DNA of 64,000 nucleotides, from assembly GCF_014695385.1 (NCBI RefSeq), contig NZ_JACJOD010000031.1:186001-250000 (forward strand), written 5' to 3'. The stretch's first letter is position 1, and each line of letters begins with the position of its first letter. The notes under the pieces were generated by a model. It was given only the letters and a program-made list of their open reading frames with translations. It ran no database searches and was not told where the DNA came from. Positions 17,453 to 57,109 of this stretch are shown in pieces. A program made the position numbers and the translations under genes. Origin of the DNA: Trichocoleus sp. FACHB-46 (GTDB lineage: Bacteria > Cyanobacteriota > Cyanobacteriia > FACHB-46).

Positions 17453-17527
17453 GAAACAGCCTTGGGGGATTCTCCCCCAACCCCTCGATTGAGGGACGGC
17501 TGCGTCCCCCAAACCCCCTCCAGAGCG
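17453..17527 (-). repeat. Dispersed structured repeat, family A, copy 1
   Basis: In minus orientation this copy contains GGGACGCAGCCGTCCC (a 6-bp stem) and TTGGGGGAGAATCCCCCAA (an 8-bp stem). It lies about 75 bases downstream of the MscS stop codon in the sense orientation, between two convergent genes. Three further copies lie at about 28.6, 32.4 and 56.1 kb. Confidence 0.8.
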
Positions 17528-17603: not shown

Positions 17604-18440
17604 TTAGTCGATGATTTCGGATTCTGGGTCTGAGGCTATGTCGGGATCGGGTTGTTGTAGGGTTTCTTTCACCATTTGTTGGATTTCCGATCGCACTTGT
17701 TCGTAAGCTTCGGCGGCGCACCAGGGTCGTAGGTACAAGACGGTGGTGGTGGGGGAGACGGAGTGGACGTGGCAGGTGGGTTTGGGGTCGTTGAGGACGA
17801 GGGGATGGGGGAGGACTAGGGCCAGCAGCATGGTGATGGTGGAGTCGATGGAGCGATCGCCGATGTCAATTTCTAGATCGACCCGGCGGGTGCCCAAGGT
17901 GGTCATGTTTTTCAGGGTGCCGCTGAATAGGTTGCTGTTGGGAACGGTAATTTTGACGTTGTCGCGTGTGACCAGGGTGGTGTAGAACAGGCCGATACTA
18001 TCCACGACGCCGAATACGCCTGCGCCTTCTACATAGTCGCCGACTTCAAAGGGACGGAAGGTGATGAGCATGATGCCTGCCGCGAAGTGGGACAAGGTGT
18101 TTTGCAGCGCTAAGCCGATCGCCAAACCTGCGGCACCCACCACAGTGACTAGGGTGGCGGTGGGAATTGCTAGAGCGGTTAAAGCAGCGCTGATGCCTAC
18201 GACTAACGTGATAATTTCGGAGGCTTGCACCAAAAATTTGCGAATGGTGGGTTCGGTGCGGTTGAGGGTCCGACGCATCACCCGTCCCACCAAACCGATC
18301 GCCAAACGAGTCAGGACCAAAATGCCAATGGCCCCAAAGACTCTCGGTACGATGTCAAAAGCCAATTCAATCAGGTTTTGGGCAACCTGCGGCGTGACGG
18401 CAGCTAGCAAAACGGTCATAGGCAATGTCGAGAATGTCAT
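17604..18440 (-). CDS. MscS-family small-conductance mechanosensitive channel
   Basis: The 278-residue protein has three hydrophobic segments ahead of a beta domain. The third is the Ala/Gly-rich pore helix ('VGAAGLAIGLALQNTLSHFA'), and 'ITFRPFEVGDYVEGAG' at the membrane-beta boundary is diagnostic of MscS. The C-terminal region is cytoplasmic and acidic. It opens under membrane tension to release solutes during hypo-osmotic shock, or it may be one of the many cyanobacterial MscS paralogues with signalling roles. The length is close to that of E. coli MscS. It is followed in the same sense by a family A repeat. Confidence 0.92.
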   Translation of the reverse strand: MTFSTLPMTVLLAAVTPQVAQNLIELAFDIVPRVFGAIGILVLTRLAIGLVGRVMRRTLNRTEPTIRKFLVQASEIITLVVGISAALTALAIPTATLVTVVGAAGLAIGLALQNTLSHFAAGIMLITFRPFEVGDYVEGAGVFGVVDSIGLFYTTLVTRDNVKITVPNSNLFSGTLKNMTTLGTRRVDLEIDIGDRSIDSTITMLLALVLPHPLVLNDPKPTCHVHSVSPTTTVLYLRPWCAAEAYEQVRSEIQQMVKETLQQPDPDIASDPESEIID

Positions 18441-27987: not shown

Positions 27988-28569
27988 ATGGCCCGCACCG
28001 CTTCTACCATGCTGGCACTAGGCACCCAAGCCCCAGATTTTCAGTTGCCCGATGTCGTGTCTGGTCAAACCATTTCCTTATCCACCTTTGCTGACAAACA
28101 AGCCCTACTCATCATGTTCATTTGTCAGCACTGCCCCTTTGTCAAGCACATTCAAGATCAACTCGCCCAACTCGGCCAAGACTACGCTACCCAAAACCTC
28201 AGCATCATCGCCATCAGCGCCAACGACGCCGAGAAATACCCCGACGACGGCCCCGACTCCCTCAAAACCATGGCCCAAACCCTTGGGTTCACCTTTCCCC
28301 TGTGCTACGACGAAACCCAAGCCACAGCCAAAGCCTACACCGCCGCCTGCACCCCCGACTTCTTCTTGTTTGACGCCAATCACCAGCTGATCTATCGTGG
28401 TCAACTCGACGACAGCCGCCCCGGAAACAACAAACCCGTCACAGGCCAAGACCTAAGAGCCGCGATCGACGCTGCCCTAGCCAACCAACCCATCAACCCC
28501 GACCAAACACCCAGCATCGGCTGCAACATCAAATGGAAACCAGGTAACGAACCCGCTTATTACGGTTAA
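27988..28569 (+). CDS. Thioredoxin-like / AhpC-TSA family protein
   Basis: The 193-residue protein shows an AhpC/thioredoxin fold: 'LGTQAPDFQLPDVVSGQ', then 'LLIMFICQHCPFVKHIQDQL', where CxxC (CQHC) is the likely redox pair, and 'AACTPDFFLFDANHQLIYRG' carrying the conserved TP of the fold. It is a probable cytoplasmic peroxiredoxin-like or disulfide-handling protein; the exact activity is unknown. A good ribosome-binding site (AAGGAG) precedes the ATG. A family A repeat lies 12 bases beyond the stop in the sense orientation. Confidence 0.9.
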   Translation: MARTASTMLALGTQAPDFQLPDVVSGQTISLSTFADKQALLIMFICQHCPFVKHIQDQLAQLGQDYATQNLSIIAISANDAEKYPDDGPDSLKTMAQTLGFTFPLCYDETQATAKAYTAACTPDFFLFDANHQLIYRGQLDDSRPGNNKPVTGQDLRAAIDAALANQPINPDQTPSIGCNIKWKPGNEPAYYG

Positions 28570-28581
28570 AGTCAAAAAGCC

Positions 28582-28658
28582 ACTTTTGGAGGGGGTCTGG
28601 GGAACGCAACCGTCCCTCAGCGGGGGTTTGGGGGCGCGTGACCCCAAGGGCTTGGATT
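28582..28658 (+). repeat. Dispersed structured repeat, family A, copy 2
   Basis: It starts CTTTTGGAGGGGGTCTGGGG and contains AACGCAACCGTCCC and TTTGGGGGCGCGTGACCCCAA. The first hairpin has one A-C mismatch, and the second retains a TTGGGG/CCCCAA stem. It lies just after the thioredoxin-like gene. Confidence 0.8.
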
Positions 28659-31650: not shown

Positions 31651-31774
31651 CTCAATCCCAGAACTCATTAAGAAGCACATCAACTCCTTCAGCGTCTCAG
31701 GAGTTGTATGTTAGCGTGAGGGCAAGCATTTGATGTTTGTCCACTTCTTGACGCTTCCCGATGGGAGGGAAACT

Positions 31775-32254
31775 ATGCCGACTCAACCGCCCCCATCCAT
31801 TACCCCTCGCCAGATGAATCTGTTGCGAGCTGTGGCTTCAATGGCTTGGTCTGACGGCCACCTGGCTACCGAAGAAATTGACCTCATGCTCGACCAATTC
31901 AGCCGCCTGTTTGCCAACGACCCTAAACAGCAGCAGAGATTGCAACAGGAATTGCGAGACTATCTACTTCAAAACATTCCCCTAGAAGAGATCATCCCAA
32001 AACTCGATCGGCAGGAAGAACGCGAATTAGTGCTACGCCTAGGTTACGAAGTCATCCGCTCCAGCGCTCGCACCCCCAACGAACCGGAAATCAACGAAGA
32101 AGAAGCCAAAGCCTACGAACGCCTAAAAAGCCTACTAAACCTGTCACCCGACGCCGTCCAGCGAGTTGAAGCCGAAGCCCAAACCAGCCTCGAAACCCAA
32201 GATGGCATTGTCGAGCTGTTAGTCGTGCAAATTCAGCACTTTATTAATGGGTAA
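31775..32254 (+). CDS. TerB-like all-helical protein
   Basis: The 159-residue product is helical. The segment 'NLLRAVASMAWSDGHLATEE' has the acidic D-G-x-x-x-x-E-E pattern of TerB-family domains, which bind metal or act as scaffolds. The start at 31775 has a strong GGGAGG about seven bases upstream; the frame extends upstream without a better site. TerB proteins are named from tellurite-resistance operons, but single copies like this are widespread in cyanobacteria without a proven role. A family B repeat begins four bases after the stop codon. Confidence 0.82.
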   Translation: MPTQPPPSITPRQMNLLRAVASMAWSDGHLATEEIDLMLDQFSRLFANDPKQQQRLQQELRDYLLQNIPLEEIIPKLDRQEERELVLRLGYEVIRSSARTPNEPEINEEEAKAYERLKSLLNLSPDAVQRVEAEAQTSLETQDGIVELLVVQIQHFING

Positions 32255-32257
32255 AGA

Positions 32258-32304
32258 ACCTAACCCCCCAGCTCCCTTCCCTAGAGGGAAGGGGAGCCAG
32301 AAGT
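32258..32304 (+). repeat. Dispersed hairpin repeat, family B, copy 1
   Basis: AACCTAACCCCCCAGC leads into CTCCCTTCCCT, paired with AGGGAAGGGGAG across a two-base loop with one bulged G. It begins immediately after the TerB-like stop codon and is followed 46 bases later by a family A copy. Confidence 0.78.
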
Positions 32305-32350
32305 TAAGAGGTAAGACCCCAAGCCTCGAAACACTACCGTCACGTTCGTT

Positions 32351-32433
32351 TAGAGAGGGTCTGGGGGACGCAACCGTCCCTCAGCGGGGATTGGGGAGCG
32401 AGTGCCCCCAAGGCGCGGATTTCTCAAAGATAT
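32351..32433 (+). repeat. Dispersed structured repeat, family A, copy 3
   Basis: It contains GGGACGCAACCGTCCC (perfect 6-bp stem) and a TTGGGG/CCCCAA stem. With family B copy 1 it forms a 176-base B-then-A module between the convergent TerB-like and nadA genes. The order and orientation match those at 55974-56138. Confidence 0.8.
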
Positions 32434-32451: not shown

Positions 32452-33423
32452 TTAACTCATCTCCAGCATCCGCTGAATCGGACGCAGTGCTCTTACCCGC
32501 ACATCTTCCGGTAACGTAATCTCCGGCGATCGCTGCTTCATCGCCAAATACAACTTCTCCAGCGTATTCAACCGCATGTGAGGGCATTCATTGCAGGCAC
32601 AATTATTCATGGGCGGTGCAGGAATAAACCGCTTGTGAGGGGCTTGCTTCTCCATTTGGTGAATAATCCCCGGTTCCGTCGCCACAATAAAAGCTTGGCG
32701 ATCGCTTTGCTCTGCGTACTTCAGCAACGCCGTCGTCGAGCCAATGTATTGAGCACGACGCAGCACCGCAGGTTCACATTCTGGGTGAGCAATCACTTCC
32801 GCGTCGGGATGCGCCATCTGCAACTGCACAATCTTCTTCTCAGAAAAAGTTTCGTGTACCATGCAGCTCCCTTGCCACAACACCAAATCTCGCCCGGTTT
32901 GCTCCATCACATAACGACCTAAGTTGCGATCGGGTGCAAAAATGATCGGTTGGTCTTCCGGGATTTGGCGCACAATCTTGACCGCATTGGAGCTAGTGCA
33001 GATGATGTCGCTCATCGCCTTAATCTCAGCAGTGCAGTTAATGTAAGACACCACCAAATGATTCGGGTGAGCTGCTTTGAACTCGGCAAAAGCTTGGGGT
33101 GGACAACTGTCTGCCAAGGAGCAACCCGCATCTAAGTCGGGCAGCAACACCAACTTGTTAGGGTTGAGAATTTTGGCAGTTTCCGCCATGAAGTGAACGC
33201 CCGCAAACACAATCACATCGGCATCAGTTTGGGCGGCTTGTTGCGAGAGGCCCAGTGAATCCCCTAAGTAGTCGGCGACATCCTGGATGTCTGGGTCTTG
33301 GTAGTAGTGAGCCAGAATAATCGCGTTCAGTTCTTGCTTCAGCGCTTGAATCGCTGCGAACAAGTCTTGGGGAAAAGCGGTGGATGGGTTGGAGCGTTGC
33401 TGAGGAAGGGCAGTGGTAAACAC
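32452..33423 (-). CDS. nadA: Quinolinate synthase NadA
   Basis: The 323-residue enzyme condenses iminoaspartate with dihydroxyacetone phosphate to quinolinate in de novo NAD synthesis. It has three 4Fe-4S ligand regions: '[13 protein letters not shown]', '[15 protein letters not shown]' and '[20 protein letters not shown]'. '[20 protein letters not shown]' is the usual N-terminal core. The GTG at 33423 gives the N-terminus FTTALPQ, similar to other cyanobacterial NadA proteins; an upstream TTG at 33447 is less likely. Its promoter region carries an unusual palindrome (listed separately). nadB is not in the window. Confidence 0.95.
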
Positions 33424-56060: not shown

Positions 56061-56138
56061 CCTTTTGGAGGGGGTCTCGGGGACGCAACCGTCCCTCGGC
56101 GGGGGTTTGGGGGCGAGTGCCCCCAAGGCTCGGATTTC
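56061..56138 (+). repeat. Dispersed structured repeat, family A, copy 4
   Basis: It contains GGGACGCAACCGTCCC and TTGGGGGCGAGTGCCCCCAA, both perfect hairpins. It lies between the ATPase and permease genes of the ABC operon and is antisense to that operon's transcript. With family B copy 3 it repeats the B-then-A order seen at 32258-32433. Confidence 0.82.
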
Positions 56139-56150
56139 CAAAAACATAAC

Positions 56151-57026
56151 TCAGAACCCCGCTCCCAAAGATAAAGCCCCCGAAACCTCCCGACAATACT
56201 CATTAAACAGCGACGACAAACGAAACTCCTCCGTGCGGGGATAAGGAACTGCAACCTCCACCTCCGCCACCACCCGCCCTGGACGCGCCGCCATCACTAC
56301 CACCCGATTCGACAAATACACCGCCTCATAAATGTTGTGCGTTACAAACACCACCGTCCAGCGCTTCTGACTCCACAAACTCAGTAAATCACTATTAAGC
56401 TTGCTCCGCGTCATCTCATCTAGCGCTCCAAACGGCTCATCCATCAGCAAAACATCAGGCTGCGTCACCAACGCCCGCGCGATCGAAACCCGCATCTTCA
56501 TGCCGCCCGACAACTCACGGGGATAGGCTTGCTCAAACCCCTTCAGTCCTACCAGCGCGATCGCCTCAGCCACCGCTGCCCTAGCTGCCAGCTTGGACAT
56601 TCCTACCAACTGCAACGGCAACCGCACATTCTCCAGCACCGTCGCCCAGGGCATCAGCGCCGCTTCCTGAAACACAAAGGCTAACTTTGGTGCCAGTTTT
56701 GAACTGAATGGACGCTGCCAAAACTTCCTCGCCGCCTTAACGTCCGCTTGAACTGCGCCCCACGCAATCTCCCCAGAACTCGCCTCCCCCAAGCCTGCCA
56801 TGATCCGCAGCGCTGTGCTTTTACCGCATCCCGAAGGCCCCACCAAACTAATGAACTCAGACTCCGCAATCTTTAAGTTCATCTCCTGCAAGGCGGTCGT
56901 GCCATTGGAGTAGACCTTACTGACTTGGTGGAACGCGATCGCACAAGAATTCTTAGCAAAACGAGACTCAGGCAAGTCTGGCTGGTGGCAGGATTCAGGG
57001 CACTCCTGCGCTGAGGGCGTATCCAT
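56151..57026 (-). CDS. ABC transporter ATP-binding protein, SsuB/TauB/ThiZ type
   Basis: The 291-residue ATPase has Walker A 'SLVGPSGCGKSTALRIM', a Q-loop in 'LAFVFQEAALMPWATVLENV', the signature 'ELSGGMKMRVSIARAL', Walker B 'VLLMDEPFGALDEMTRSKL' and an H-loop in 'TVVFVTHNIYEAVYLSNRVV'. It powers import by the adjacent permease. The ATG at 57026 with AGGAGA upstream is preferred over a TTG at 57035. The last 40 residues extend beyond the usual end by a short tail. All catalytic motifs are intact. Confidence 0.93.
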   Translation of the reverse strand: MDTPSAQECPESCHQPDLPESRFAKNSCAIAFHQVSKVYSNGTTALQEMNLKIAESEFISLVGPSGCGKSTALRIMAGLGEASSGEIAWGAVQADVKAARKFWQRPFSSKLAPKLAFVFQEAALMPWATVLENVRLPLQLVGMSKLAARAAVAEAIALVGLKGFEQAYPRELSGGMKMRVSIARALVTQPDVLLMDEPFGALDEMTRSKLNSDLLSLWSQKRWTVVFVTHNIYEAVYLSNRVVVMAARPGRVVAEVEVAVPYPRTEEFRLSSLFNEYCREVSGALSLGAGF

Positions 57027-57109
57027 TCCCCGCAATCTCCTTATCGTATGACCACAGCCTTAAAGATATCTTGGCAAATATCACTGCTTGTAGGAACAGC
57101 TCAGACTCT

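Follow-up and report, generated by a model that had tools for sequence, protein, structure and literature searches.

The PIT/BoxC element (TM_ECO; PMC4666352, and Hoyne et al. cited there) is, like the repeat described here, dispersed, intergenic and G/C-rich, and is built of three tracts (third strand, purine and pyrimidine); Microcystis, Nostoc and Anabaena are reported to be rich in G/C triplex motifs (PMC4666352). BoxC differs in being class II with 9-nt tracts, in standing singly and in lacking the same 3′-end rule (PMC4666352), whereas our repeat has the class I order, two tandem units and only 5-6 good triads, and most of its copies fail the ITxF cut-offs. REPs of the GTAG and CGTC super-families (PMC3733652) are likewise palindromic units of 20-40 bp, present in many copies in convergent or tandem gaps near stop codons, and those of the CGTC super-family are also without a transposase (PMC3733652). 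Like REPs, the repeat forms a palindromic hairpin and occurs many times between genes, close to their 3′ ends; unlike them, it has a purine tract that mirrors the stem, and two different hairpins in a fixed head-to-tail order. The alignment of copies contains no GTAG tag, and its CGTC lies inside the stem of hairpin 1 and not in an unpaired end tag. The short dispersed repeats (SDR) of Nostoc are small, non-coding and dispersed in cyanobacterial genomes. Cyanobacterial MITEs share these traits (PMC3542288); set against either, SDR being compared by description only, the present repeat differs in that neither terminal inverted repeats nor a target duplication was seen.

The window, that is the whole stretch of 64,000 nucleotides from Trichocoleus sp. 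FACHB-46 that was analysed, holds four copies (Table 1). The core, GGGGACGCARCCGTCCCTC, has four matches there (17491 on the minus strand; 28600, 32364 and 56079 on the plus strand) where 0.01 is expected by chance, a number that no shuffle of the window reached, and hairpin 2, at up to three mismatches, matches at 28628, 32392 and 56107 (expected 0.00), with a variant at 17462-17480. The two stems and four dispersed copies of the preliminary description are thus upheld, and both hairpin-2 sequences that it quoted are present: TTGGGGGC-GAGT-GCCCCCAA at 56 kb and TTGGGGGA-GAA-TCCCCCAA at 17 kb. The C-G to A-T pair difference between these, which had been taken for a compensatory change, does exist, but it is fixed between subfamilies and was not seen to arise within one lineage. 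Judged by its Nostoc-like type, its 3-nt loop and its TTTGGGGGAGAATCCCCCAA, the 17-kb copy is a member of a separate sub-lineage. Copies 2 and 3 are kept at the orthologous site in both of the congeners compared, and copy 4 is also kept at an orthologous site. Rfam covariance models, applied to the window at the gathering score, matched two tRNAs only and not the repeat.

Table 1. Copies of the repeat in the window and the genes beside them (gene calls and open reading frames, ORF).
Feature	Position	Strand	Parts or relation	Basis
Copy 1, Nostoc-like subtype	17453-17527	-	hairpin 1 17489-17512; hairpin 2 17462-17480 (loop 17470-17472); T1 17514-17518	
Gene 5′ of copy 1	17604-18440	-	same strand; ends 77 bp before copy 1	gene call, ORF
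Copy 2	28582-28658	+	T1 28591-28595; core of hairpin 1 28600-28618; hairpin 2 28628-28647	
Gene 5′ of copy 2	27988-28569	+	same strand; ends 12 bp before copy 2	ORF, gene call
Copy 3, LONG class	32326-32433	+	upstream module TCGAAACAC...TTCG 32326-32350; T1 32355-32359; core 32364-32382; hairpin 2 32392-32411	
Gene 5′ of copy 3	31730-32254	+	same strand; stop 32254	ORF, gene call
Gene converging on copy 3	32452-33423	-		ORF, gene call
Copy 4	56061-56138	+	T1 56070-56074; core 56079-56097; hairpin 2 56107-56126	
Gene beside copy 4	56151-57035	-	antisense to copy 4; stop codon 13 bp away	ORF, gene call

The repeat family is real, and larger than first described. Across the 6.56 Mb (92 contigs) of the own genome, the core at up to three mismatches gave 80 matches (41+39), against 2 (1+1) for the reversed pattern, and a covariance model gave 83 hits at E <= 0.1, all except one with E below 1e-9; an exact pattern found 52 and 67 copies in two species of the same genus. 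The strict pattern had a single match, in only one of 17 genomes of other families. With a looser pattern, the matches listed come from Nostoc, Calothrix, Tolypothrix, Rivularia, Richelia, Microcoleus, Scytolyngbya, Tildeniella, Plectonema and others, with up to about 79 copies per genome among them; these share the two-unit build TTTTGGAGGGGGTTTGGGGGACGCAACCGTC(A/C)CCCAATCGGGGGTTTGGGGGAGAATCCCCCAA, and it is their Nostoc type that the 17-kb copy of the window resembles. The comparisons below use 199 copies from the three species of the genus and, for the triplex rules, 81 copies from other taxa, and genome-wide statistics were computed on retrieved genome stretches. A text search of papers for the letters of the repeat found none.

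Each copy spans about 60-75 bp and consists of two tandem units with different hairpins, always in the same head-to-tail order. A unit runs from a purine tract (T1) through a 3-nt linker (TCT or TTT) to a second purine tract (T2), a loop and a pyrimidine tract (T2′), so that unit 1 reads GGAGGGGG-TCT-GGGGGACG-CARC-CGTCCCTC and unit 2 GGGGG-TTT-GGGGGC-NNNN-GCCCCC; the 31-nt unit sequence is GGAGGGAGTCTGAGGGACGCAACCGTCCCTC, with relatives that carry GGAGGAGG and GGAGGGGG. The stems covary, as had been claimed: in 71 copies, 97.3% of the cells are paired, with a score higher than that of any of 500 shuffles or of any slid control, although this score is inflated by the kinship of the copies and supports the hairpins without counting independent events. 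Two-sided changes are confined to 4 of the 18 stem pairs, where they mark a few subfamilies. The stem covariation is genuine but rests on few founder changes. The preliminary description had gone on to read it as selection for a structure, a step that these few subfamily markers do not support; in palindromes, matching arms can also arise by template switching in DNA, and the inverted loops and the deleted unit described below show that the repeat does undergo events of this kind. As single-stranded DNA, the window copies fold only moderately better than shuffles do: three of them scored z -2.3 to -2.5 and one -0.2.

The two-stem description also missed a third tract. Throughout the 199 genus copies T1 and T2 covary in mirror register, by way of few independent A-for-G events that were spread by copying; gene conversion over one unbroken stretch would move all three tracts together. 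Unit 1 occurs as GGAGG/GGAGG/CCTTC in 27 copies (GGAGG-TCT-GGAGG..CCTTC) and as GGGAG/GAGGG with CCCTC, CCTTC or CTCTC in 20, and unit 2 as GGGAG/GAGGG/CCCTC in 30 (GGGAG-TTT-GAGGG..CCCTC). With unit 1 in the mirror register, A stands in both tracts 51 times and in one tract 16 times, while in the best direct register these counts are 29 and 60; for unit 2 the mirror counts are 31 and 17. The Watson-Crick arm changes together with the purine tracts in 29 of 29 cases at level 3 of unit 1 and in 31 of 31 at level 2 of unit 2. Three-way mirror changes occur at levels 2 and 3 of unit 1 and at level 2 of unit 2, and the same register also holds an invariant A opposite A (GGA...ACG); were each A placed at random, we estimate the chance that all four would fit one register at about 1 in 1000 (1/5 x 1/5 x 1/5 x 1/8). 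Each of the 30 GAGGGC-N4-GCCCTC hairpins listed for the genus is preceded by GGGAG. A model in which the third tract pairs with the pyrimidine arm was considered and dropped: it needs a direct register and not the mirror one, and the unshifted direct register of unit 2 scores zero. The coupling of a third tract with the 5′ arm of the stem in mirror register is a new observation, and as a pattern in aligned copies it would be the signature of a fold-back, intrastrand-triplex-like structure in DNA. When fixed GAGGGC or GGGAGC stems were sought in 388 cyanobacterial genomes, matches outside the genus were chance matches only, mostly with HIP1-type GCGATCGC loops and without a mirror tract, so that independent A-variants are rare. 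A copy in Nostoc carneum (G390:C1:4966280-4966335) reads GTGGG-TTT-GGGTG..CACCC, with a mirror-symmetric T and the matching A in the third arm; in contrast, CACCC in the usual Nostoc form goes with tracts made of G throughout.

Could the repeat be a true class I DNA intrastrand triplex (PIT), kept by selection as a roadblock to replication or transcription? The three-way mirror changes and the invariant A opposite A speak for this, the mirror GGGAG/GAGGG recurs in two copies from other taxa (L119 and L165), both units have the class I order RH-R-Y, and class I third strands follow the G*G.C and A*A.T rule (Holder et al., PMC4666352). A related G/C-rich motif adopts a triplex in vitro (PMC4666352), and since RNA forms no purine-motif triplexes (PMC4666352), the mirror rule, if structural, is a matter of DNA. 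However, the ITxF rules (6-15 triads, no more than one mismatch above 7, loops of 1-6 nt; PMC4666352) are passed by just 12 of the 199 genus copies and 33 of the 81 others (0 of 199 shuffles), and by none of the four in the window; G*G.T stands at level 2 in 168 of 194 genus copies, and unit 2 has 5 good triads only. We therefore think a selected triplex roadblock rather unlikely, and, although the repeat is triplex-motif-like in its symmetry, we do not file it as a triplex motif. Less probable still, to the point of being improbable, is one intramolecular G-quadruplex made from four G5 tracts, with the T1-T2 match as its tetrad layers. G5-TTT-G5 does occur twice, and the mirror coupling would be compatible with antiparallel G-hairpins too; but A changes in unit 1 seldom share a copy with A changes in unit 2 (both are present in 3 copies; Fisher p 0.012 for mutual avoidance) while the Watson-Crick arms follow their purine tracts, as a four-tract quadruplex does not predict, which disfavours a single structure of this kind.

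Events at the level of DNA are visible between the three species, orthologues being assigned by similarity of their flanks. Loop 2 is inverted in one congener only (G001) in two orthologous sets (L026/L197/L244 and L056/L201/L290) and differs by inversion between L037 and L225, and loop 1 is inverted in L326 relative to L030/L320; among the copies of other cyanobacteria, 61 have GAA as loop 2 and 13 have TTC. Such inversion is hard to reach by point mutation, for which the commonest loop would need four simultaneous changes. The 17.5-kb site is in three states in the three species: GAA (element strand) in the window, an inverted hairpin-2 loop in G001 and, in the other congener (G002), exactly one unit deleted between two CCCCCAAACCCCC direct repeats. 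At L313 the final bases of the element alone remain, beside unrelated DNA. The same subtype is found in 54% of 131 orthologous pairs, against 23% of random paralogues, and the differences between orthologues are often switches of a whole unit (for example in unit 2, where L028 differs from L302); that conserved sites change subtype in this way fits gene conversion between copies. Inversions, one-unit deletion and whole-subtype switches together show that the palindromes act in DNA, during replication or recombination. The arms of a stem may thus match without having been selected to do so.

About five sixths of the parsed copies fall into clusters that span two or three species; most compared copies therefore have orthologues, and recent mobility is low. 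A search of the flanks of 11 copies found only in the own genome gave no clean empty sites or target duplications; the sites were rearranged or partly deleted, and no insertion as such was seen. Five copies without orthologues (L019, L011, L015, L020 and L027) have flanks that map apart in both congeners, and so lie at rearrangement boundaries, a placement that may be set beside the instability that Holder et al. claim for triplex motifs (PMC4666352).

The copies shun divergent (promoter) gaps and concentrate at gene 3′ ends, a preference that REPs share (PMC3733652). With genes called by a simple codon-usage scorer, convergent, tandem and divergent gaps of the own genome number 24/48/7 with a copy and 7/54/41 without (chi-square p about 1.6e-7), and in other taxa 38/50/5 with the element and 60/215/91 without, divergent gaps again being depleted (p about 7e-6); in the orientation of the element, the 199 genus copies include ++ 45, +- 60, -+ 15 and -- 72, with 3 inside a called gene. 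The two outcomes set out in advance as contrary to the preliminary description, stems without covariation and random placement relative to gene ends, were thus not found. Its statement that three copies lie downstream of a gene in sense orientation is true of the window (17.5, 28.6 and 32.35 kb) but does not extend to the genome, where tandem sites are antisense in 31 cases and sense in 17, a weak bias (p 0.06).

This placement raises the question of whether the repeat is a selected transcript 3′-end element, whose transcribed hairpins terminate transcription or protect mRNA from 3′-5′ decay, as E. coli REPs do; the transcribed strand would be mostly the C-rich one, close behind stop codons in this genus. 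Besides the strong bias to 3′ ends and convergent sites, such a role could draw on the stop codon of the antisense neighbour, which in the genus lies mostly 9-45 nt from hairpin 2, on stable RNA hairpins (the C-rich strand of the 56-kb copy folds with z -2.45), on the retention of copies at orthologous sites and on the finding that in Synechococcus elongatus canonical intrinsic terminators account for only 22% of transcription-unit ends (PMC13289151). However, the non-canonical ends of S. elongatus mostly show little structure (PMC13289151), the stop codon is far away in other genera (median 158-200 nt), the loops are freely inverted and the orientation bias is weak. Nor do the hairpins run into a U-tract as intrinsic terminators do: hairpin 2 is followed by AAGGCTCGGATT and, on the other strand, the hairpin-1 side leads into AGACCCCCTCC. 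We consider a selected 3′-end element doubtful and place it second to the following reading, the likelihoods given here not being mutually exclusive.

Of the roles first suggested (3′-end protection, termination or a mobile palindrome) the last has fared best, and the explanation that we favour, with some confidence, is a REP-like, non-autonomous, interspersed DNA palindrome of cyanobacteria, tolerated at 3′ ends, where it may secondarily affect how transcripts end; it is probably a small repeat that spreads itself, and not a dedicated gene switch. We propose that the G-rich strand, when single-stranded at the replication fork, would let each unit fold into a hairpin, on whose purine arm the preceding purine tract could fold back antiparallel (G*G.C and A*A.T; class I intrastrand-triplex-like). 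Hairpins formed in replication might then cause templates to be switched, copies to convert one another and the repeat, now and then, to spread, and if copies are retained at gene 3′ ends this may be chiefly because they are least harmful in that position; transcribed hairpins would at most stabilise or delimit mRNA 3′ ends, as a side effect. Mobilisation by a RAYT was rejected: the own genome has three Y1_Tnp (PF01797) genes, none of them beside a copy. These loci (L190, L191 and L192) are two IS200-like transposases and one fragment, away from the repeat.

Whether intrastrand triplexes exist in cells is an open question; Holder et al. obtained stable triplexes in vitro but no in vivo footprint in E. 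coli (PMC4666352). It is a tentative thought, and one we would not lean on, that the three-way mirror co-variation recorded in repeat variants across the phylum is evidence, from comparative genomics, for an intrastrand triplex or fold-back that both arises and has consequences in vivo; if true, this would supply what footprinting in E. coli could not show. The repeat offers natural mutant pairs at one chromosomal site, and the inverted loops and lost units by which its copies differ among closely related species are a readable record of hairpin-driven replication errors. To our knowledge cyanobacteria are without Rho, and the copies, located as they are at gene ends in such a phylum, are candidates for 3′-end maps.

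An unrelated second palindrome, CCCCCAGCTCCCTTCCCTAGAGGGAAGGGGAG, lies at 32265-32315, between the gene end and copy 3. That the conserved upstream TCGAAACAC module might encode protein was considered and dropped, as by eye it is not obviously coding. The LONG class, with 89 of the 199 copies (in the window 32326-32350; also, for example, L002, L014 and L024), has an extra module, TCGAAACACNCACA..TCG, immediately 5′ of TTTGGAGG, and this module usually has 5′ of it an A/G-rich minisatellite of 50-100 nt (GGATGAGGGATGA, GTGAGGAGTGAG).
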